A stretch of 64,000 bases of DNA from Actinopolymorpha singaporensis. Its GTDB lineage: Bacteria; Actinomycetota; Actinomycetes; Propionibacteriales; Actinopolymorphaceae. The stretch is taken from positions 620,001 to 684,000 of the forward strand of contig NZ_LT629732.1 in NCBI RefSeq assembly GCF_900104745.1. Reading direction: 5' to 3'. A program made the translations under genes and the position numbers. The notes below the pieces were generated by a model, which did no database searches, was not told the DNA's origin, and saw only the letters and a program-made list of their open reading frames with translations. Within the stretch, counting starts at the first letter, position 1. Every line of letters starts with the position of its first letter. Of this stretch, positions 43,800-56,068 are shown in pieces.

Positions 43800-45959
43800 T
43801 CAGGCCGGAACGGCGTCGGTCTCGCGGTCCCAGTGCCGGTGCAGGCTCACCGCGTCGGCGAACACCCGGCAGAAGTCCTCCAGGCGGTTCTTGTCCGGAC
43901 CGCGCCCCTGGGTGACCACACCGCGGTCGTTGACCGGCTGGTCGGCGTTGGTGGCCACCATGACCTCGCCGATGGGAGCCCGGGACAGAATCTCGATCCC
44001 CTCCGCCACCGCGCCGACGGTCTTGGCGTGTTTGAACGCCTCGGCGACGAAGTGCACCGCCTCGCCGTCGCGGGACAGCGCCTGCGCGGCCTCGGCCCCA
44101 CCGGGCACGACCACCGCGTCGTACAGCACCGACGCCATCGTGTTCAGCCGGCGGTCGGCCTCGACGGTGGAGCCGTTCGTGGTGGTGATCTTTCCGTCGC
44201 GCAGACCGAGCACCTCCGGCAGCAGGCCCATCCCGGAGAGGTTCTCCACCAGGGCGGTCACGTGCACCTCGTCAACGCCGTCGGCAGCGAGCACCGCGAC
44301 CATCCGGGTGGCGATCGGCGCACCGGGGCGCACCTGACTCAGCGCCGGGGACGACTGCCCGTGGTTGGGGCGGTCCGCCTCGGCCGGCGGCTCCACCCCG
44401 ATGCCCTGGGCGACGGCGACCGCGAGCTCGTGGTCGATCCGGTTGAGGTGCTCGACGACTCGTTCGCGAATGTACTTGCGCTCGACCTTGCCCAGCTCGA
44501 ACTGGTACGCCGCGACGATGTGCTCCTTCTCCGGCGCGGACATGCTGTTCCAGAACAACGTGGCCTGGTTGTAGTACTCCTTGAAGCTCTCGCTCCGCTG
44601 GCGGATCTTGTGGCCGTCGACGCGTTCCTGATAGTGCCGGAACACCTCGCCGTCGCCGCCCACGGCCGGGCAGCCGCCGCCGATGGTGTTCGGGGAGTAG
44701 CTGGACTGCGTGCGGTAGATCTGGTGCTGGTGGTAGCCGTCCCGGTGGTTGTGGGTGACCGGAGCGACCGGCCGGTTGACCGGGATCTGGGCGAAGTTCG
44801 GCCCACCCAGCCGGATCAGTTGCGTGTCGAGGTAGGAGAAGTTGCGCGCCTGCAGCAGCGGGTCGTTGGTGAAGTCGATGCCCGGCACGACGTTCGCGGT
44901 GTGGAACGCCACCTGCTCGGTCTCGGCGAAGAAGTTGTCCGGGTTGCGGTCGAGCACCATCTTGCCGATCCGGCGGACCGGCACCAGCTCCTCCGGAATG
45001 ATCTTCGTCGCGTCCAGCAGGTCGAAGTCGAACCTGAACTCGTCCTCCTCCGGCACCAGCTGGACGCCGAGCTCCCACTCGGGATAGCTGCCGGACTCGA
45101 TCGCCTTCCACAGGTCCCGGCGGTTGAAGTCGGCGTCCTTGCCGGCGATCTTCTGTGTCTCGTCCCACACCAGCGAGTGGACGCCGAGCAGCGGCTTCCA
45201 GTGGAACTTGACGAAGGTGCCGCGGCCCTCGGCGTTGACGAACCGGAAGGTGTGGACGCCGAAGCCCTCCATCATCCGGAAGCTGCGCGGAAGCGCGCGG
45301 TCCGACATCAGCCACATGATCATGTGGAGCGACTCCGGCTGCAGCCCGACGAAGTCCCAGAACGTGTCGTGGGCGGACGCCGCCTGCGGAATCTCGTTGT
45401 GGGGTTCGGGTTTGACCGCGTGCACGAAGTCGGGGAACTTGATGCCGTCCTGGATGAAGAACACCGGCATGTTGTTCCCGACCAGGTCGTAGTTGCCCTG
45501 CCTGGTGAAGAACTTCGTCGCGAACCCGCGCACGTCCCGCACGGTGTCGGCCGACCCGCGAGACCCGGCGACGGTGGAGAACCGCACGAACACGGGAGTA
45601 CGCCGGCCCGCCTCGGCCAGGAAGTCGGCGACGGTGACGTCGGCCATCGACTCGTACGCCTCGAAGTAGCCGTACGCACCCGCGCCCCGGGCGTGCACCA
45701 CCCGCTCCGGGATCCGCTCGTGGTCGAAGTGGGTGATCTTCTCCCGGAAGTGGAAGTCCTCCAACAGCGTCGGACCGCGCTCGCCGACGGACAGGGAGTC
45801 GTCGGTGTGGTCGACGCGCACACCCTGGTCGGTGGTCAGGTGCGTGCCCTCGATGTCCACCCGGGACCCCTCGAGCTGGCGGTCCTTGCTGTCGGCGTCC
45901 GCGCGGAGGTGCCCGTCACCGGCTGCCGTCGTCGGGTTGTTCCTGGTCGGGTCGTCCAT
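43800..45959 (-). CDS. katE: Large-subunit catalase (HPII type) with DJ-1-like C-terminal domain
   Basis: A 719-residue clade-2 haem catalase converting H2O2 to water and O2. The N-terminal core has [15 protein letters not shown] with the distal His, [16 protein letters not shown], the distal Asn region [20 protein letters not shown], and the NADPH/fold block [14 protein letters not shown]. The last about 150 residues ([39 protein letters not shown]) are the DJ-1/PfpI-like domain found only in large catalases. Length is slightly short of E. coli KatE (753). Single gene with a canonical terminator. Probably stationary-phase or oxidative-stress protection. Confidence 0.96.
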
Positions 45960-46074
45960 ACCCAGCCCCCTGGGAGTAGTCGCGTTTGCCCTACGTCCCT
46001 ACCCGGGAGACGAGCCGGTACGCGCCCGATGCTCGCCCGATGCCGCCCTGAACACCTCCGGCCGCCCGCGCGGC

Positions 46075-46488
46075 CTACCTGGCGAAGTCGTACTCGATGG
46101 CGTAGGTGTGGCTGCCGTCCTCGTGCACGGTGATGGCCACCTCACCGCGGATCCAGGTCAGCTCGCCGGTCCCGGTGTCGGGGACCACGGTCACCGTCAT
46201 GGTGCTGTGCCGCTCGTCGCCGTCGCCCTCCATCGTCGCCGCGTGCCGGACGGCGAAGCTGCCGGTACGGCCGTCCAAGCTGCCGGTCATCCGTTCGACA
46301 CCGACGTACGCCGCCGACGTGGGCACCCGGCCGGTCACCGTGAGCAGCCTGGCCGTGCTCGTCCCTCTCAGGCCGCCGCGGAACTCCTTGCCGACGAGGA
46401 CGCTCGCGATGGTCACGCCGCCGTCCTCCTCCTCGGTGGTGGCGTCCCAGCGGGTGATCTCGAAGCTTCCGGTCGCGCGGTGTCCCAT
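46075..46488 (-). CDS. DUF3224 protein
   Basis: A 137-residue single-domain protein of the DUF3224 beta-barrel family (allene-oxide-cyclase-like fold), function unknown. It starts MGHRATGSFEITRWDATTEE and ends GEVAITVHEDGSHTYAIEYDF; a central GSLDGRTGSFAVRHAATMEG is typical. The catalase start lies 115 bp to the left on the same strand, so they could be loosely co-regulated. No membrane or signal sequence. Confidence 0.87.
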   Translation of the reverse strand: MGHRATGSFEITRWDATTEEEDGGVTIASVLVGKEFRGGLRGTSTARLLTVTGRVPTSAAYVGVERMTGSLDGRTGSFAVRHAATMEGDGDERHSTMTVTVVPDTGTGELTWIRGEVAITVHEDGSHTYAIEYDFAR

Positions 46489-46659: not shown

Positions 46660-46754
46660 GGAGGCGTCTCCGGCCTGGTGGCCGGCACGGTCTTCAACAC
46701 CGATGAGCGGCAGGAGCTGTCGCTGGCGGGTTCGATTCCCGTCCGCCTCCGCCA
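46660..46754 (+). tRNA. selC: tRNA-Sec (anticodon UCA)
   Basis: A selenocysteine tRNA of 95 nt, including an encoded 3' CCA. The acceptor GGAGGCG pairs with CGCCTCC; the eighth pair position is a T-C mismatch in this reading. The D arm is CCGGCC-TGGT-GGCCGG, six pairs with a four-base loop, which is diagnostic of bacterial tRNA-Sec. The anticodon loop is CTTCAAC with TCA at 46694-46696, reading UGA. The long variable arm is AGCGGCAG-GAG-CTGTCGCT (eight pairs). The T arm is GCGGG-TTCGATT-CCCGT. It sits 63 bp before selA. Confidence 0.95.
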
Positions 46755-46817
46755 CCACGCCCACGGAGGATCCTCCGTCCCACGCCTGGCCAGCTCTCCA
46801 CCCGGAGTGAGAACGCG

Positions 46818-48206
46818 ATGACCGACGCCCGCCGCCGCGTGCCCCGCACGGACGTCGTCCTCGCCGACCCCCGGCTGGCCGAGCCGGCCCGCACCCTCGG
46901 CCGCGCCGCGGTGAAGGCCGCTGTCGTCGCCGCACAGGAACGCGTCCGCGCCGGCCAGGTCGAACCCGAGGCGCTCGTCGACGTCGTACTCGCCGAACTG
47001 CCCGCGTCGGCCACCAGCCTGCGCCGCGTGGTGAACGCGACCGGCGTGATCGTGCACACCAACCTCGGCCGCGCACCGCTGTCGGCCGCCGCGCGGGATG
47101 CGCTGGACGTCGCCGCCGGGACCACCGACGTGGAGTACGACCTGGCCACCGGCGCCCGCGCCCGGCGCGGACGAGGCGCTTTGGACGCGCTCGCCCGGGC
47201 GGTACCCGACGCGGGCGGGGTGCACGTCGTCAACAACAACGCCGCCGCCCTGCTGCTGGTCGCGCTGACCCTGGCGCAGGGCAAGGAGATCGTGCTCAGC
47301 CGGGGCGAGTTCGTGGAGATCGGCGACGGCTTCCGCATCCCGGACCTCCTCGCCGCGAGCGGGGCCCGACTGCGCGAGGTGGGTACGACGAACCGGACCA
47401 CCCGCGCGGACTACGAGGCGGCGATCGGCCCGCAGACCGGGTTCGTCCTGAAGATCCACCCGTCGAACTTCGTCGTGTCCGGCTTCACCGCCGGAGTCGA
47501 CGTCGCCAGCCTCGCCGACCTGGGCGAGCGCCTCGGCGTACCCGTCGTGGTCGACATCGGCTCCGGCCTGCTGGCCCCGCACCCGCTGCTGCCGGACGAG
47601 CCGGACGCCGCGAACGCCCTGCGCGCTGGCGCGACCCTGGTCACCGCGAGCGGCGACAAGCTGCTCGGCGGCCCGCAGGCCGGACTCGTCCTCGGCGTAC
47701 GCGACGTGGTGGAACGGGCCCGCCGCCACCCGGCGGCACGGGCGATGCGGGTGGACAAGCTCACCCTCGCGGCCCTGGAGGCAACGCTGCGCGGGCCGGC
47801 CCCGCCGGTGCGCGCCGCACTGGACGCAGACGCGGCCGGGTTGCGGGGCCGGGCGGACAAACTCGCCGCCGCGCTCGCCGGCGCCGGGATCGACGCCACC
47901 GTGGTCGCCTGCCGGTCGGCGGTCGGTGGCGGCGGCGCGCCCGAGGTGGAGCTGGCGAGCTGGGGCGTCGGCGTACCCGCGGCGTGGGCGGTGCCGCTGC
48001 GGACCGGCGACCCGCCGGTGGTCGGCCGGGTGCACGAGGGGCGCTGCGTCCTCGACCTGCGCACCGTTGCGGCCGAGGACGACTCCGTGCTCGCCGACGC
48101 GGTCGCCCGCGTGGCCGCGGGCCGGGTTCCCGGCTCCGTGGCCTCCACCCTGTCCACCCTGTCCACCCTGTCCACCCCGGCCTCCCCGTCCTCCTCGAGG
48201 AACTGA
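46818..48206 (+). CDS. selA: L-seryl-tRNA(Sec) selenium transferase
   Basis: A 462-residue PLP enzyme that converts Ser-tRNA-Sec to Sec-tRNA-Sec using selenophosphate. The PLP lysine is Lys281 in TASGDKLLGGPQAGLVLG. Other SelA blocks: NATGVIVHTNLGRAPLSAAA, VEYDLATGARARRGRG, VNNNAAALLL, LSRGEFVEIGDGFRIPD and EVGTTNRTTRADYEAAIG. Length matches E. coli SelA (463). The C-terminus carries an STL repeat from 9-bp DNA repeats. It follows tRNA-Sec by 63 bp and precedes selB by 12 bp, so charging and delivery of Sec are encoded together. Confidence 0.97.
   Translation: MTDARRRVPRTDVVLADPRLAEPARTLGRAAVKAAVVAAQERVRAGQVEPEALVDVVLAELPASATSLRRVVNATGVIVHTNLGRAPLSAAARDALDVAAGTTDVEYDLATGARARRGRGALDALARAVPDAGGVHVVNNNAAALLLVALTLAQGKEIVLSRGEFVEIGDGFRIPDLLAASGARLREVGTTNRTTRADYEAAIGPQTGFVLKIHPSNFVVSGFTAGVDVASLADLGERLGVPVVVDIGSGLLAPHPLLPDEPDAANALRAGATLVTASGDKLLGGPQAGLVLGVRDVVERARRHPAARAMRVDKLTLAALEATLRGPAPPVRAALDADAAGLRGRADKLAAALAGAGIDATVVACRSAVGGGGAPEVELASWGVGVPAAWAVPLRTGDPPVVGRVHEGRCVLDLRTVAAEDDSVLADAVARVAAGRVPGSVASTLSTLSTLSTPASPSSSRN
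48147..48173. repeat. Three 9-bp repeats near the selA C-terminus
   Basis: ACCCTGTCC occurs three times in a row, encoding a Ser-Thr-Leu repeat about 12 codons before the selA stop. In-frame. Confidence 0.85.
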
Positions 48207-48218
48207 GGGAGGCACGGG

Positions 48219-50096
48219 ATGTACGTCGTCGCCACCGCCGGCCACGTCGACCACGGCAAGTCGACGCTGGTTCGCCGCCTCACCGGCATGGAACCGGACC
48301 GCTGGGCCGAGGAACGCCGACGCGGCCTGACCATCGACCTGGGCTTCGCGTGGACGCGGCTGCCCGACGGTCAGGCGCTGGCGTTCGTCGACGTGCCCGG
48401 CCACGAACGCTTCGTACCCAACATGCTCGCCGGCGCCGGGCCGGTCGCGGCCGCGATGTTCGTGGTGGCCGCCGACGAGGGGTGGCGGGCGCAGTCGGCC
48501 GAGCACCTCGCCGCGCTGGACGCGCTCGGCGTACGCCACGGGCTGCTCGTCGTCACCCGCTCCGACCTCGCCGACCCCGAACCCGCCCGGGCGCACGCCC
48601 TGGAGCAACTCGCGGCCAGCACGCTGGGCGCCGGCGGCGCCGGCGGCACCGGCGGCGCCGTGCCCTCGGTCGCCGTCAGTGGCCGCACCGGCGCGGGTCT
48701 GGACGACCTGCTGACCGAGTTGGCCGCGCTGACCCACCGGCTGCCCGTGCCCGACCCGGGCGCCGACGTACGGCTCTGGGTGGACCGCTCGTTCAGCGTA
48801 CGCGGTGCCGGCACCGTCGTGACCGGCACGCTCACCGCCGGAACCATCGCGGTCGGCGACATCCTCGCCGTCGCCGGTCGGGGTGGCGGTCAGGGGGAAC
48901 GCCGGCTGGTGCGGGTCCGCGGGCTGCAGGCGCTCGGCGAGGACCTGCGGAGCGTGCAGGGGACCGCCCGGGTCGCGGTGAACCTGCGGGGAGTCGACCG
49001 TGCGGACCTCGGCCGCGGCGACGCGCTCGTCACCCCGGACGCCTGGCGGGAGACCGAGGTCGTGGACGTGGCGCTCCGGTACGGCGGGGGTGAGCTGCCG
49101 GGGACGCTGGTCCTGCACGTCGGCGCGGCCGCGGTGCCGGCGCGGGTCCGCCCGCTCGGCCCGAACGCGGCCCGGCTCACCCTCGACCGGCCGCTCCCGC
49201 TGCGCACCGGCGACCGCGGGCTGTTGCGCGACCCCGGACGGCACCAGGTCGCCGCGGGCCTGGCGGTGCTGGACGCCGCACCGCCCGAACTGCACCGTCG
49301 GGGCGCGGCCCGGACCAGAGCACGGTCCCTCGCGCCGGCCGTACGGGAGACGAACGGCGCAACCGACCCGGCCGACTCGGCCGGCCTCACCGCGTACGTC
49401 GCCGGTCTCCACCTGCGCGAGCACGGCCTGGTCCGCCGCGACGAGCTCCGCGCGCTGGGCCTGCCCGAGCTGCCACCGGACAGCCTCGACGTCGGTGCCG
49501 GCTGGTCCGCGGCCGCCGACCACTGGGCGAAGCTGACCGGACGGGCACCGGAGGAGCTGGCCGGCTGGGAACGCGAGCACCCGCTGGCAGCGGGCATGCC
49601 GTCCGACGTACTCCGGCAACGCCTCGGCATCCCCGCCGCCCTGCTGCCGGCCGTGGCCGGTGCCGCCGAGCTGCTCCTGCGGGACGGCCAGGTACGCCGG
49701 CCGGGCACCGAGGCGACGCTGCCCCCGGCCGTGGAGAAGGCGGTGCGCACGGTGGAGGACGACCTGGCCGCGGAGCCGTTCGCCGCGCCCGAGGCGGCCC
49801 GGCTGGCCGAACTCGGCCTCGGCACCCGCGAGCTCGCCGCCGCCGTACGTGCCGGCCGGCTGCTCCGCGTCACCGACACGGTGGTGCTGCTGCCCGACGC
49901 CCCCGACCAGGCCCGGCGTACTCTCGGCGCGCTCGACCAGCCGTTCACCCTCAGCCAGGCGCGGATCGCCCTGGGCACCACCCGCCGGGTGGCGGTCCCC
50001 CTGCTGGAGCTGCTCGACGAGCGCGGCGTCACCGAGCGCCTGCCCGACAGCAGCCGCCGGCTCGTCCCGCGCGCCTCAACCAGCGAAGGACGCTAG
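48219..50096 (+). CDS. selB: Selenocysteine-specific elongation factor
   Basis: A 625-residue GTPase that carries Sec-tRNA-Sec to the ribosome and binds the SECIS hairpin. The N-terminal EF-Tu-like part has G1 GHVDHGKST (8-16), the switch region RRGLTIDLGFAW, G3 DVPGHERFV, and VTRSDL in the G4 position (canonical NKxD/TKxD altered to TRSD, as in other SelB). The domain after that has VDRSFSVRGAGTVVTGTLTAG. The last about 250 residues contain winged-helix repeats for mRNA binding, including FTLSQARIALGTTRRVAVPL. Length close to E. coli SelB (614). Starts 12 bp after selA. Confidence 0.97.
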   Translation: MYVVATAGHVDHGKSTLVRRLTGMEPDRWAEERRRGLTIDLGFAWTRLPDGQALAFVDVPGHERFVPNMLAGAGPVAAAMFVVAADEGWRAQSAEHLAALDALGVRHGLLVVTRSDLADPEPARAHALEQLAASTLGAGGAGGTGGAVPSVAVSGRTGAGLDDLLTELAALTHRLPVPDPGADVRLWVDRSFSVRGAGTVVTGTLTAGTIAVGDILAVAGRGGGQGERRLVRVRGLQALGEDLRSVQGTARVAVNLRGVDRADLGRGDALVTPDAWRETEVVDVALRYGGGELPGTLVLHVGAAAVPARVRPLGPNAARLTLDRPLPLRTGDRGLLRDPGRHQVAAGLAVLDAAPPELHRRGAARTRARSLAPAVRETNGATDPADSAGLTAYVAGLHLREHGLVRRDELRALGLPELPPDSLDVGAGWSAAADHWAKLTGRAPEELAGWEREHPLAAGMPSDVLRQRLGIPAALLPAVAGAAELLLRDGQVRRPGTEATLPPAVEKAVRTVEDDLAAEPFAAPEAARLAELGLGTRELAAAVRAGRLLRVTDTVVLLPDAPDQARRTLGALDQPFTLSQARIALGTTRRVAVPLLELLDERGVTERLPDSSRRLVPRASTSEGR

Positions 50097-50099
50097 GGT
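50094..50099 (+). promoter_or_regulatory. Candidate -10 for the formate dehydrogenase operon
   Basis: TAGGGT overlaps the selB stop codon (TAG) and lies 51 bp before the dehydrogenase ATG. It could give fdh its own promoter besides read-through from selAB. No -35 is obvious. Confidence 0.35.
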
Positions 50100-50149
50100 C
50101 GATCGCGCACGAGACCTCACGCGAACCACAAGCGAGCAAGGTGGCGGTC

Positions 50150-53100
50150 ATGGGCGTACGACAGTGGATCGAGGGCTGGCCGGTCTATCGCCAGCTCACC
50201 GGTCAGGACCCGCTCGGCCGCGGCGCCGCGGTCACCTCCGAGCACACCCGCCAGCTGCGGGCACGCACGGAGCAGGCCGACAAGGTGGTCCGGTCGATCT
50301 GCCCGTACTGCGCGGTCGGCTGCGGCCAGAAGGTCTACGTCAAGGACGGCCGGGTCACCCAGATCGAGGGCGACCCCGACTCTCCCATCTCCCGCGGCCG
50401 GCTGTGTCCCAAGGGCTCGGCCAGCAAGCAGCTCGTCACCAGCCCGAGCCGGGTCACCACCGTGCTGTACCGGCGGCCGCACGGCACCGACTGGGAACGC
50501 ATCCCCCTCGATCAGGCGATGGAGATGGTCGCCGACCGGGTGCTCTCGACCCGGCGCGACACCTGGCGGGACGAGGAGGGCGGCCGTCCCACCCGCCGCA
50601 CCATGGGCATCGCGAGCCTGGGCGGGGCGACGCTGGACAACGAAGAGAACTACTTGATGAAGAAGCTCTACACCGCGATGGGGGCGGTGCAGATCGAGAA
50701 CCAGGCCCGGATTTGACACTCCGCAACCGTTCCCGGTCTGGGAGCCAGTTTCGGTCGCGGCGGCGCCACGACGTACCAGCAGGACCTGAGCAACGCTGAC
50801 TGCATCCTCATCGAGGGCTCGAACATGGCCGAGTGCCATCCGGTCGGGTTCCAGTGGGTGATGGAGGCCAAGGCCAAGGGCGCGCGGATCATCCACGTCG
50901 ACCCGCGGTTCACCCGTACGAGCGCGGTCGCCGACACGCACGTGGCGCTGCGGGCCGGATCGGACATCGCGTTCCTCGGCGGGCTGATCAACCACGTGCT
51001 GAGCAACGGTCTGGAGTTCCGGGAGTACGTCACCGCCTACACCAACGCGGGCGCGATCCTGAGGGAGGACTTCCGCGACACCGAGGACCTCGACGGCCTG
51101 TTCTCCGGCTTCGACCCCGAGAACATGTCGTACGACACCGAGTCCTGGATGTACGAGGGGGCCGAGACCGCCCCGGCGGCAGGGCAGCGGGACGGGTCCG
51201 GCGAGGGCGGGGGCGAAGAGGGCTCCGGCGAGGAGGGCGACACCGGCACCGAGCACGGTGACCTTCGACACCGCGAGACGGCTCGCGCCGACACCTACGG
51301 CAGCGGCGGCGCGGCCCTGCGCGCCAAGCCCCGCATCGACCCCACCCTCCAGCACGAGCGCTGCGTCTTCCAGGTGCTCAAACGGCACTTCGCCCGCTAC
51401 ACCCCGGAAGTCGTGGAGGAGACCTGCGGCATCCCGGTCGAGCAGTTCCTCGACGTCGCCCAGGCGGTGACGGAGAACTCCGGCCGCGAGCGCACCACCG
51501 CGATCGTCTACTCCGTCGGCTGGACCCAGCACACGGTCGGGGTGCAGTACATCCGCACCGCATCGATCCTGCAGACCCTGCTGGGCAACATCGGCCGGCC
51601 CGGCGGCGGCATCATGGCGCTGCGCGGTCACGCCAGCATCCAGGGGTCCACCGACATCCCGACGTTGTTCAACCTGCTGCCGGGCTACCTCCCGATGCCG
51701 CACGCGCACCAGCACCAGGACCTCGACTCCTACGTCGCCACCGACGCGGGCCAGACCGGCTTCTGGGGCAACATGCGCAGTTACGCCGTCAGCCTGCTGA
51801 AGGCCTGGTGGGGTGATGCGGCCCAGCCGGAGAACGACTTCTGCTTCGACTACATACCGCGGATCACGGGCGAGCACGGCACCTACAAGACGGTGATGGC
51901 GCAGATCGCCGGGGAGTGCAAGGGCTACTTCCTCGCGGGCGAGAACCCCGCGGTCGGGTCGGCCAACGCCAAGCTGCAGCGGCTCGGCCTGGCCAACCTC
52001 GACTGGCTGGTCGTCCGCGACCTGCAGATGATCGAGAGCGCGACGTTCTGGAAGGACGGGCCGGAGATCCAGACCGGCGAGCTGTCCACGGAGGAGATCG
52101 GCACCGAGGTCTTCTTCTTCCCGGCCGCCGCGCACACCGAGAAAGACGGCAGCTTCACCAACACCCAGCGGCTGCTGCAGTGGCACCACAAGGCGGTCGA
52201 GCCGCCGGACGACGCGCGCAGCGACCTGTGGTTCTACTACCACCTGGGCCGGATGCTGCGGGCGAGGCTGGCCGGCTCCACCGACGAACGCGACCGGCCG
52301 CTGCTGGACCTGACCTGGGACTACCCCACCGAGGGCCCGACCGCCGACCCGTCGGCGGAAGCCGTACTCCGCGAGATCAACGGCGTCGGCCCGGACGGCG
52401 CGCTGTCGGCGTACACCGAACTCGCCGACGACGGCTCCACCGCCTGTGGGTGCTGGATCTACTGCGGCGTCTACGCGGGCGAGCACAACCACGCCGCGGA
52501 CCGCAAGCCGGGCCGGGAGCAGAGCCTGGTCGCGCCGCAGTGGGCCTGGGCATGGCCGGCGAACCGCCGGATCCTGTACAACCGCGCCTCCGCCGACCCC
52601 GAGGGACGGCCGTGGAGCGAACGCAAGCGGTACGTCTGGTGGGACGCCGAGCAGGAACGCTGGACCGGCGAGGACGTGCCCGACTTCGAACCCACGAAGC
52701 GGCCCGACTACGTGCCACCCGAGGACGCCCGCGCCGAGGACGCGCTCGCCGGGGACGACCCGTTCATCATGCAGGCCGACGGCAAGGCGTGGCTGTTCGC
52801 GCCCGCCGGCCTCACCGACGGCCCGCTGCCGGCGCACTACGAGCCGGAGGAGTCCCCGGTCGCCAACCCGCTGTACGGCCAGCAGGCCAACCCGGTCCGG
52901 CAACGCTACCCCCGCCGGTACAACCGCTACGCCTCGGGCGAGAACGACCCGGTGTCGGCGGTGTTCCCGTACGTCTTCACCACGTACCGGCTCACCGAGC
53001 ACCACACCGCCGGCGGGATGAGCCGCACCCTGCCGTACCTCTCCGAGCTGCAGCCGGAGTTCTTCTGCGAGGTGTCGCCGGAGCTGGCGCAGGAGCGGGG

Positions 53101-53464
53101 CCTCACCCACCTCGGCTGGGCGACCATCGTCTCCGCGCGGACGGCGGTCGAGGCGCGGGTGCTGGTCACCCCGCGGATGAAGCCGATCCGGATGCGGCGC
53201 CGGGTCGTCCACCAGGTCGGCCTGCCCTACCACTGGGGGCCGAACGGCCTCAGTGTCGGTGACGCGGCCAACGAGCTCCTGTCGGTCGTGCTCGACCCGA
53301 ACGTCCACATCCAGGAGTCCAAGGCCGCGACCTGCGACATCCAGCCCGGCCGCAGACCACGCGGGCGCGAACTGCTGGCCATGATGGACCGCTACCAGCT
53401 ACGGGCAGGTCTGCCGACCGACACCCCGACAGGAGCCGACACCCCGACAGGAGAGGCGACCTGA
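50150..53464 (+). CDS. fdhA: Formate dehydrogenase alpha subunit, selenoprotein (in-frame UGA = Sec189)
   Basis: A 1104-residue molybdopterin enzyme oxidising formate to CO2. The frame is interrupted once, by TGA at 50714-50716; reading it as selenocysteine gives IENQARI-U-HSATVPGL, the formate-dehydrogenase active site. The first [4Fe-4S] site uses Cys51, 54, 58 and Cys86. Downstream blocks: AECHPVGFQWVMEAKAKGAR, HVDPRFTRTSAVADTH, YIRTASILQTLLGNIGRPGGG and ENPAVGSANAKLQRLGL. No twin-arginine signal is seen, so it probably faces the cytoplasm. Residues about 338-385 are an acidic Gly/Glu-rich insertion. ATG start with AAGGTGG 6 nt upstream. It overlaps fdhB by one base. The tail has an 18-bp repeat. 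Confidence 0.95.
50721..50754 (+). promoter_or_regulatory. SECIS-like hairpin for selenocysteine insertion
   Basis: Directly after the in-frame TGA, TCCC (50731-50734) and GGGA (50740-50743) close an apical loop GGTCT; below it CCGCAACCG (50721-50729) pairs with CAGTTTCGG (50746-50754) with two single mismatches. The loop begins 18 nt after the TGA. Loop sequence and distance match the E. coli fdhF SECIS as I remember it (GGUCU, 18 nt). It is part of the coding sequence and is the expected SelB binding site. Confidence 0.88.
53420..53455. repeat. Two 18-bp repeats at the fdhA C-terminus
   Basis: GACACCCCGACAGGAGcc/ag occurs twice, encoding DTPTGA-DTPTGE three codons before the stop. In-frame. 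Confidence 0.85.
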
Positions 53465-54411
53465 TGAGCAACCGCCTGGCGGGACCCCTCGCCGACCCGG
53501 CCGCCGACGCGGGCCACCCGGAGGACCATCCGCCGCGGGTGGGCTTCTTCACCGACACCTCGGTGTGCATCGGCTGCAAGGCCTGCGAGGTCGCCTGCAA
53601 GGAGTGGAACGCCCTGCCCGAGGACGGCCTGAACTTCCTCGGTCACTCCTACGACAACACCGGCGCGCTCGGGGCGAGCACCTGGCGGCACGTCGCGTTC
53701 GTCGAGCAGGAGGCCCCGTCCGGTCGGCCGCCGGTCGACCTCGGGATGCCCGGTGTCGGTACGCCGGCCCGGCTCGACCCCGCCACCGCGCGCACGGTCG
53801 GCGAGGACGCCGGCTCGGGCGACGGAGCCGCCGGCGACGCGGGCGCCCTGCGCTGGCTGATGTCCAGCGACGTCTGCAAGCACTGCACGCACGCGGCCTG
53901 CCTGGACGTCTGCCCGACGGGCGCGCTGTTCCGGACCGAGTTCGGCACGGTGGTCGTCCAGGACGACGTGTGCAACGGCTGCGGCTACTGCGTCTCGGCC
54001 TGCCCGTACGGCGTCATCGACATCCGCCCCGACAACGGCGGCGCGTTCAAGTGCACCATGTGCTACGACCGGCTCGGCGACGGACTGGAGCCGGCCTGCG
54101 CGAAGGCGTGCCCCACGGAGTCGATCCAGTTCGGCCCGCTGGACGAGTTGCGCGAGCGGGCCCGCGAGCGGGTGGCGACGCTGCAGGAGGCCGGGGTGGA
54201 CACCGCCCGGCTGTACGGCGCGGACCCCGACGACGGAGTGGGCGGCGACGGCGCGTTCTTCCTGCTGCTGGACGAGCCGGAGGTGTACGGCCTGCCGCCG
54301 GACCCGGTGGTGACCACCCGCGACCTGCCGGCGATGTGGCGCCAGGCGGGGCTCGCGGCGGCCACCATCGCGGTCGCGGTCGCGGCGTCGTTCCTCGGGA
54401 GGCGGCGGTGA
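53464..54411 (+). CDS. fdhB: Formate dehydrogenase iron-sulfur (beta) subunit
   Basis: A 315-residue ferredoxin-type subunit passing electrons from FdhA to the membrane. Four cysteine clusters are visible: CIGCKACEVACKEW, CKHCTHAACLDVCPTGAL, CNGCGYCVSACPYGV and CTMCYDRLGDGLEPACAKAC, enough for four [4Fe-4S] centres. The C-terminus has a hydrophobic segment (AGLAAATIAVAVAASFLG) as an anchor. A loop of about 40 residues after the first cluster (EQEAPSGRPPVDLGMP...) is rich in Pro/Asp. Its ATG overlaps the fdhA stop (TGATG) and its stop overlaps nrfD. Confidence 0.95.
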   Translation: MSNRLAGPLADPAADAGHPEDHPPRVGFFTDTSVCIGCKACEVACKEWNALPEDGLNFLGHSYDNTGALGASTWRHVAFVEQEAPSGRPPVDLGMPGVGTPARLDPATARTVGEDAGSGDGAAGDAGALRWLMSSDVCKHCTHAACLDVCPTGALFRTEFGTVVVQDDVCNGCGYCVSACPYGVIDIRPDNGGAFKCTMCYDRLGDGLEPACAKACPTESIQFGPLDELRERARERVATLQEAGVDTARLYGADPDDGVGGDGAFFLLLDEPEVYGLPPDPVVTTRDLPAMWRQAGLAAATIAVAVAASFLGRRR

Positions 54412-55415
54412 GCACCCGCGAGGAACTCCAGGTCCCGCGCGCCGAGTTCCGGTCCTACTACGGGCGGCCCATCCTCAAGGAGCCGACCTGGAAGGTGCCC
54501 GACGTACCCCTCTACTTCTTCCTCGGCGGCATGGCCGGCGCCTCGGCGACGATGGCCGCGCTCGCCGACCTCACCGGGCAGGAGGGGCTGGCCCGCACCG
54601 GCCGGTACGCCGCGGCGTTCGGGTCGACCGCGAGCGTGGCAGCGCTGGTACACGACCTGCACCGGCCGACCCGGTTCCTGAACATGCTGCGGGTGTTCAA
54701 GCCGACCTCGCCGCTGTCGGTGGGTTCGTGGATCCTCGCACCGTTCTCCGGTACGGCCGCCGCCGCAGCGGTGTCCACGGTGACCGGGGTGCTGCCGGCG
54801 TGGGGACGCGCGGCGGGGCTCGCCTCGGGTGTGCTCGGCCCGGCGCTGTCCACCTACACCGCGGTGCTGCTGACCGACACCGCGATCCCGGCCTGGCACG
54901 AATACCACCGCGAGCTTCCGTTCGTGTTCGCCGGAAGCGCGCTGGCCAGCGGCGCCGGCGCCGCCCTGGTGGCCGCGCCGCCGGCCGAGCTGGCACCGGC
55001 CCGGCGGATGGCGGTGCTCGGCGCCGGCATCGAGCTCGCCGCCGCAACCCGGATCGAACGCACCGGCGGCATCGTCGGCGAGCCGTACCGCACCGGCCGC
55101 CCGCGCAGGCTGATGGCCGCCGGGCGGATCCTCACCGGTGTCGGCGCGGGGCTGGCGCTGGCCGGCCGGCGCAGCCGCCTGGTGTCGGACCGGAACAGCC
55201 GGCTGCTGTCCGCGGCGGCCGGCGTCTCGCTGCTCGCGGGCGGGGTGTGCACGCGGTTCGGCGTGTTCTACGCCGGCCGGGCGTCCGCCGCCGACCCCAA
55301 GTACGTCGTCATGCCGCAACGCGACCGCGTCGCCGCCCGAAGCGACGGTGCCGCCGAGGGCACGGCCACGGCGAAGACGGGTGGCGCCACGGGACCCGGC
55401 TCCCCGCCGCGGTGA
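54408..55415 (+). CDS. nrfD: NrfD/PsrC-family membrane subunit of formate dehydrogenase
   Basis: A 335-residue membrane protein of the polysulfide-reductase NrfD family, with about eight hydrophobic segments. It opens SYYGRPILKEPTWKVPDVPL and has LYFFLGGMAGASATMAALADL and DLHRPTRFLNMLRVFKPTSPL (a conserved quinone-site block), with the late FGVFYAGRASAADPKYV. In this place it should pass electrons from FdhB to menaquinone instead of a cytochrome b subunit. The GTG overlaps the fdhB stop (GTGA). Disordered C-terminal tail of about 30 residues. Confidence 0.92.
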   Translation: MSTREELQVPRAEFRSYYGRPILKEPTWKVPDVPLYFFLGGMAGASATMAALADLTGQEGLARTGRYAAAFGSTASVAALVHDLHRPTRFLNMLRVFKPTSPLSVGSWILAPFSGTAAAAAVSTVTGVLPAWGRAAGLASGVLGPALSTYTAVLLTDTAIPAWHEYHRELPFVFAGSALASGAGAALVAAPPAELAPARRMAVLGAGIELAAATRIERTGGIVGEPYRTGRPRRLMAAGRILTGVGAGLALAGRRSRLVSDRNSRLLSAAAGVSLLAGGVCTRFGVFYAGRASAADPKYVVMPQRDRVAARSDGAAEGTATAKTGGATGPGSPPR

Positions 55416-56068
55416 TGCGGGTCCGCGCGGTCAGCCCCGACCGGCTGGTCACCGAACTCGCGGACACGATCGCGGACCTTCCGACAAGCACGCGCCCAGG
55501 CGCAGGCACGAGCGCCTGGACCCGGGTGGCCGTCGACGGCGCGCCCGCGGCGCACCCGGACCGCTGGGCCGACGCGCTGACCGAACCACTGCGCGAACGC
55601 GGCCGAGCCGTGGTGCGGGTCCGGGCCGAGGACTACCTGCGCCCGGCGTCCCTGCGCCTGGAACGCGGCCGGGAGGACCCGGACGTGTTGTACGAGGACT
55701 GGCTGGACGACGCCGGCCTGATCCGCGAGGTGCTCGAACCCCTCGACCCCGGCGGCAGCGGCCAGGTGCTGCCCGCGCTGTGGAACGCCGAGACCGACCG
55801 GGCCCACCGCGCCGGTTACGTCACCGTCCCGCCCGGCGGGGTGCTCATACTCAGCGGCTCGCTGCTGCTCGGGCGCTGGCTGCCGTTCGACTTCGTTGTG
55901 CACCTCGAGCTCTCACCGGCCGCGCTGGCCCGGCAGACGCCGGAGGAGCAGCGGTGGACCCTGCCCGCCTACGACCGGTACGCCGGGGAGGCCGAGCCGG
56001 TTCAGGCGGCACAGGTCGTGGTCCGGCTGGACAACCCCGAACGTCCTGCCGTGGTGGAGGGGTCATGA
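55415..56068 (+). CDS. Uridine-kinase-like protein with degenerate P-loop
   Basis: A 217-residue protein resembling the uridine-kinase-like proteins of actinobacteria (VRVRAEDYLRPASLRLERGR, GGVLILSGSLLLGRWLPFDF). Where these have VDGxxGAGKT the sequence reads TRVAVDGAPAAHPDRWADAL, so the Gly-rich loop and its Lys/Thr are missing and ATP binding is doubtful. It is the last gene of the formate-dehydrogenase operon, its ATG overlapping the nrfD stop. It may be a structural or assembly factor for the enzyme. Its end overlaps the convergent aquaporin gene by 6 bp within a palindrome. Confidence 0.75.
   Translation: MRVRAVSPDRLVTELADTIADLPTSTRPGAGTSAWTRVAVDGAPAAHPDRWADALTEPLRERGRAVVRVRAEDYLRPASLRLERGREDPDVLYEDWLDDAGLIREVLEPLDPGGSGQVLPALWNAETDRAHRAGYVTVPPGGVLILSGSLLLGRWLPFDFVVHLELSPAALARQTPEEQRWTLPAYDRYAGEAEPVQAAQVVVRLDNPERPAVVEGS

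Follow-up and report, generated by a model that had tools for sequence, protein, structure and literature searches.

The selenocysteine locus

The window analyzed here is a stretch of 64,000 nucleotides (G000:C1:620001-684000) from the genome of Actinopolymorpha singaporensis, which measures 6.40 Mb, is assembled as a single contig and has 99.4% completeness. It holds genes for the insertion of selenocysteine (Sec) next to a formate dehydrogenase gene, in the order selC-selA-selB-fdhA-fdhB-nrfD-kinase-like and all on the same strand. Successive genes are separated by gaps of 63, 12, and 44 bp and then overlap by 1, 4, and 1 nt, so the nearly touching arrangement described in an earlier note on this DNA was borne out. 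In window coordinates, the features are as follows.

46660-46754, + strand: selC, tRNA-Sec, found with ARAGORN; anticodon TCA/UCA, CCA encoded
46818-48206, + strand: selA, L-seryl-tRNA(Sec) selenium transferase (TIGR00474, 428 bits, cut-off 268)
48219-50096, + strand: selB, Sec-specific elongation factor (TIGR00475, 255 bits, cut-off 242), with winged helix PF09107
50141 (GTG) or 50150 (ATG) to 53464, + strand: fdhA, selenoprotein formate dehydrogenase alpha subunit
50714-50716, + strand: UGA (predicted Sec codon) in fdhA, context ENQARI-U-HSATV
50728-50746, + strand: SECIS hairpin, 7-column stem (50728-50734/50740-50746) and loop GGUCU (50735-50739)
53464-54411, + strand: fdhB, 4Fe-4S ferredoxin-type beta subunit (NCBIfam/Pfam profiles)
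54408-55415, + strand: nrfD-like membrane subunit (PF03916)
55415-56068, + strand: kinase-like open reading frame (ORF)

The note had read selC as a tRNA-Sec with a UCA anticodon, and the covariance model agreed. The gene matched Rfam RF01852 over its full length at 75.2 bits (gathering score, 47), and the one other match above cut-off in the genome was a tRNA-Ser, which leaves selC as the sole Sec tRNA. An odd-looking U8-C66 mismatch next to the G49-C66 pair was set aside as a peculiarity of this gene, as it is common to nearly all tRNA-Sec genes compared. The lysine named for SelA, Lys281, is indeed present, within SGDKLLGGPQ, and both SelA and SelB exceeded their profile cut-offs. Along with a SelD encoded in the genome and a SECIS element, the sequence features by which bacterial Sec decoding is recognized were all found. 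FdhA matched the family model NF041513 (formate_DH_Act) over its whole length with no notable difference (1995 bits; cut-off, 1400), and from this family membership we infer that it oxidizes formate. The kinase-like ORF had no match in Pfam or NCBIfam and, among the loci compared, occupies this position only in Actinopolymorpha. Judged by its sequence, the locus is a genuine and ordinary gene set for Sec insertion into a formate-oxidizing enzyme. SelA would convert Ser-tRNA-Sec to Sec-tRNA-Sec, SelB would bind the SECIS element right after the UGA at 50714 and insert Sec at the FdhA active site, and FdhA-FdhB-NrfD would oxidize formate as a membrane-associated formate dehydrogenase.

The UGA codon of fdhA and its SECIS element

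The fdhA frame contains a single in-frame UGA and no further stop until 53462. When the bases were shuffled, the 915 codons 3' of the UGA stayed open in 0 of 2000 trials. The identical UGA codon was found in all 41 loci (repeats included) where the ENQARI-U-HSATV motif was read.

In the window copy of the SECIS hairpin, 6 of the 7 stem columns pair, the outermost column pair being non-standard, while across 27 distinct relatives 95.2% of the stem cells are paired. The column pair 27/39 reads CG (12), UA (9), GU (4), GC (1), or UG (1), with no mismatches. Each of these columns falls on the third position of a codon, for Val (GTN) and for Gly (GGN), and the covariation is synonymous. The covariation score of 0.311 compared with 0.123 +/- 0.019 in shuffled alignments, was equalled by 0 of 500 shuffles, and fell to 0.10 or less in slid controls. 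The minimum free energy fold of the 60 nt 3' of the UGA had an unremarkable energy (z, -0.56); thus, it is covariation and not folding energy that supports the SECIS element. Comparison of the aligned genes gives strong evidence that selection acts on the RNA structure. The GGUCU loop is presumably the same as that of E. coli fdhF.

A vacated selD site beside selC

Neither the SECIS element nor a missing selD had figured in the earlier note. A profile search found no selD in the locus or anywhere in the window. The site where it would be expected is as follows.

45960-46074, no strand: empty selD site, a 115-bp gap between kat (43800-45959, - strand) and a DUF3224 gene (46075-46488, - strand)

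In two other genomes of the genus, G008 and G011, a Cys-type selD (GGCACKI) occupies this place beside selC, with kat on one side and the DUF3224 gene on the other, and a Cys-selD also lies near selC in G026 and G004. When the window was compared with G008 and G011 by blastn, both flanks aligned and selD was skipped. Searches with tblastn returned no trace of the native gene, either in the window or in Actinopolymorpha rutila. In A. rutila the native gene is gone while the adjoining short-chain dehydrogenase-like stretch, common to G008, is still there. The genus thus presents a series, from genomes with Cys-selD only, through G008 with both types of gene, to this genome and A. rutila with only a Sec-type senC. 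These alignments show that the Cys-selD beside selC, evidently ancestral, was deleted in this genome and in A. rutila.

The only selD of the genome lies in a predicted sen cluster

A single selD exceeded the cut-off in the genome. It lies about 1.14 Mb from the module if the chromosome is circular, or 5.3 Mb along the contig.

G000:C1:5933718-5934752: sole selD, with TGA at the active-site codon
G000:C1:5931151-5935938: sen cluster, with senB-senA divergent from selD/senC, followed by an ArsP_1-type permease

The composition is that of a sen cluster, predicted to make the antioxidant selenoneine. Matches to the family models for SenA (501 bits) and SenB (355 bits) lie above the curated cut-offs of 420 and 300, respectively, and a SelD-type senC is adjacent. 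Relatives of SenA, SelD, and the permease more than 89% identical occur only in this genome, G008, and A. rutila (G022). SenB adjoins them in the same three genomes, and the wider flanks are collinear. We considered the permease as a conserved partner of Sec-type SelD and rejected it, as it adjoins selD only in these three Actinopolymorpha, the loci from other classes lacking it at that position. UGA-encoded senC extends beyond the genus: of the 11 further sen loci in the phylum whose site could be read, every one has a stop there.

The active-site spacing of the distant SelD is U17-x-x-K20, which we take to equal that of Cys17 and Lys20 in E. coli SelD. On the 3' side of its UGA, the gene can form a stem, GGCGCA/UGCGCC, with the loop GGUCC. 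On average, 5.9 of the 6 pairs are kept in Sec versions (n = 27), whereas Cys relatives from that lineage keep 3.4 of 6 (n = 21). The loop resembles the GGUCU of fdhA, a likeness to be expected if both genes are served by a single SelB.

The small-molecule product of the cluster is uncertain. Among solved structures, the SenA-like protein matched OvsA, of ovoselenol synthesis, better than SenA (343 versus 226 bits), and the cluster could accordingly yield ovoselenol or another selenometabolite instead of selenoneine. However, the protein passed the SenA equivalog cut-off, and Pfam scans of five neighboring ORFs (L015:5101-12629) contained no methyltransferase, so we regard a product other than selenoneine as unlikely. 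No 2-selenouridine synthase exceeded the cut-off in Actinopolymorpha, which leaves Sec and, by gene content, selenoneine as the remaining uses of selenophosphate (PMC9814287, PMC10891094).

Distribution and descent of the module

We surveyed 246 genomes of the order, counting SelA and the formate dehydrogenase (FDH) family over curated cut-offs. SelA was present in 54 genomes and the FDH family in 51, every one of them within the 54. Exactly one UGA was found in each of the 51 FDH genes, SelA accompanied it in 51 of 51 genomes (Fisher p ~1e-49), and no Cys-codon fdhA homologue exceeded the family cut-off in the 246 genomes. The proposed pairing of Sec decoding with its target mRNA therefore stood, as did the view that selenium use is patchy. 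Patchiness reaches into the genus: of six Actinopolymorpha genomes, one (G018) lacks SelA and the module. The aquaporin gene was the sole flank gene found on its contig, so a clean empty site could not be demonstrated there.

The same note had suggested that the cassette is self-contained and may be transferable. A recent transfer would fit compact, same-strand genes with a patchy distribution in the order, and the SelA tree, in which Actinopolymorphaceae group with Pseudonocardiaceae and mycobacteria (SH-aLRT, 96) and not with Nocardioidaceae or Propionibacteriaceae, hints at older transfers. However, the absence of selD refutes self-containment, since that gene and fdhD (at 5123143) both lie outside the locus. 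There is also no sign of recent transfer: the SelA of Actinopolymorphaceae forms a single clade (SH-aLRT, 90; 99 without G015), and the module has the same flanking genes (kat, the DUF3224 gene, and aquaporin) in four Actinopolymorpha (this genome, G008, G011, and A. rutila). We therefore consider a recently transferred, self-contained cassette improbable. The SelA proteins of this genome and A. rutila are 94% identical. FDH genes lie behind selB on the same strand in Actinopolymorphaceae and in Labedaea; elsewhere, they are often divergent from selA or several kilobases off. The single SelA clade and the flanks shared by close relatives favor vertical inheritance of the module within the family, with an older exchange between families being possible.

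Origin of the replacement SelD

SelD proteins were placed in a quick tree in which the label "Sec" was given for any stop in the matched stretch, and three loci (L020, L025, and L069) proved to be Cys when the residue at the site itself was read; the number of label changes on this tree was therefore disregarded. A branch with an SH-aLRT value of 100 and a length of 0.48 splits two SelD types. The native Cys-SelD and the UGA-encoded SelD are about 49% identical, and G008 carries both. The closest relatives of the latter come from other classes of the phylum (62 to 71% identity), nearly all with UGA; support around the replacement SelD is moderate (85 to 92). The tree shows that the replacement SelD belongs to a lineage separate from that of the native Cys-selD.

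Could the distant gene be the native selD, relocated and turned from Cys to Sec? Exactly one selD each in this genome and A. rutila would agree with that reading, but the co-occurrence of both genes in G008, the depth of the branch between them, and the closer match of the replacement to SelDs of other classes (71%) make it very improbable. A true stop, sequencing error, or decaying gene at the UGA of selD or fdhA, although a stop is the default reading of that codon, is very improbable. The same codon recurs in 51 of 51 FDH genes, three selD copies within the genus carry it independently, an RNA hairpin is conserved in both genes, and the frames are open to their natural ends.

A proposed history of selenophosphate supply

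With good confidence, we propose that the module was inherited vertically and that the native selD was deleted after the sen cluster was gained, leaving SenC as the sole enzyme of its kind, on which Sec synthesis probably relies. The ancestor would have carried a Cys-type selD next to selC. The sen cluster, with its UGA-encoded senC and ArsP_1-type permease, would have been gained first, making the native selD redundant and open to deletion, with G008 representing the intermediate. This order, gain and then loss of the redundant gene, is the most economical reading of the series. Loss of selD before gain of senC could have occurred only with the Sec system idle in the meantime. Most likely, senC arrived by horizontal transfer, took over from the native selD, and today supplies the Sec pathway.

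SelA requires selenophosphate (PMC1794560). SenC, itself a predicted selenoprotein, would provide it, and the Sec of SenC would in turn need the module in the window, so that a mutual dependence of senC and the Sec pathway is a predicted consequence. Gene content and descent are what the sequences show; the supply of SelA by SenC, the production of selenoneine, and the route of acquisition are inferred. For the fuller picture, in which the Sec system of the genus runs on selenophosphate from the acquired SenC, a secondary-metabolite gene has thereby ousted the native selD, Sec and selenoneine synthesis form a self-feeding loop, and the permease is a possible selenium transporter, our confidence is modest and leans only somewhat in favor. 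Such a loop may be started by slow read-through, by an alternative residue at the UGA, or by inherited protein.

Relation to known systems

Sec-type SelD and sen clusters are already known, separately. Sec-containing SelD occurs in other bacteria and in archaea, for example Haemophilus influenzae and Methanococcus. Those enzymes and, by prediction, the SelD described here are selenophosphate synthetases and selenoproteins at once; the latter, however, probably came in together with selenoneine genes and took the place of a Cys-SelD. The known senA-senB-senC cluster likewise joins SenA and SenB to an adjacent selD-type gene (PMC9814287, PMC10891094). The present cluster differs in that its senC is UGA-encoded and the sole selD of a Sec-decoding genome, and in that an ArsP_1-type permease follows. 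In a limited search that covered few subscription journals, we found no literature joining Sec-SelD with sen clusters and none naming Actinopolymorpha with selenocysteine.

An analysis of the SelD family observed changes from Sec to Cys but none from Cys to Sec (PMC1794560). In Actinopolymorpha, the direction not seen there by point change appears to have been taken by gene displacement, with a Cys-containing member of the Sec pathway giving way to a Sec-containing one within a single genus. The series suggests that one selenium-activating enzyme can serve both selenocysteine and selenoneine metabolism and that the two can become locked to it, and it offers a natural test of how an enzyme that needs its own product gets started.

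The Sec-FDH cluster itself is of a known kind (NF041513; PMC2830990; PMC7176365). In Corynebacterium aurimucosum, the chromosomal region selABD-selC-fdnG likewise brings Sec genes together with a formate dehydrogenase gene that contains UGA, but selD lies within that region, whereas it has been lost from the window locus (PMC2830990). The FDH1 cluster of the aerobic actinobacterium Actinomycetospora chiangmaiensis DSM 45062 also combines fdhA(Sec)-fdhB-fdhC with selA and selB, and the available portions of that report, as at the window locus, list no selD there (PMC7176365). A. chiangmaiensis differs in the number of its Sec-FDHs, which is three, and in the permease gene that its FDH1 cluster includes, and the same portions report no selenoneine cluster or Sec-SelD (PMC7176365). 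They also describe a culture experiment in which formate removal by A. chiangmaiensis was selenite dependent (PMC7176365). The type assigned to NF041513, "exception," suggests that NCBI already gives this family special treatment.

Predicted selenocysteine in SenC and SelD

The predicted selenoneine (sen) cluster of Actinopolymorpha singaporensis has the following layout (locus L015 of the source genome, G000).

L015:7152-11939 (G000:C1:5931151-5935938): senB-senA and, in divergent orientation, a senC/selD with an in-frame UGA, then an ArsP_1-type permease gene

The permease gene lies 31 bp beyond senC/selD and may encode a selenium transporter. Three of the six Actinopolymorpha genomes share this arrangement, including the UGA. 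Among sen loci of other classes (L188-L200 and L203), the active-site codon of the adjoining selD was a stop in all 11 that had a readable site. Given these codons, SenC containing Sec appears to be common across the phylum.

Within Pseudonocardia, SelD carries Sec in some species (L023, L042, L060, and L072) and Cys in near relatives (L037, L040, and L058). Because the Cys-type L037 retains five of the six selD hairpin pairs, its sequence suggests a recent change from Sec to Cys.

Variants of the Sec module

In genome G101, selA is split into two pieces and adjoins a partial fdhA with a UGA (G101:C1:336950-341619), while selD is intact. This module looks like it is decaying. G015, G030, and G102 had SelA over the TIGR00474 cut-off, yet no formate dehydrogenase of the NF041513 family was found in them. 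In a Pseudonocardiales MAG (L028:4550-9497), fdhA directly follows selA without an intervening selB.

tRNA-Sec and its surroundings

Between tRNA-Sec and selA of the window lies one further feature.

46763-46778: perfect 16-bp palindrome, ACGGAGGATCCTCCGT

It may act as an operator or form a hairpin for processing. The tRNA-Sec of Kineosphaera limosa (L067:8395-8490) has a C8-G66 pair; in almost every other tRNA-Sec of the comparison, U8-C66 occurs there together with G49-C66. The active-site codon of K. limosa SelD (L067) also reads as a stop.
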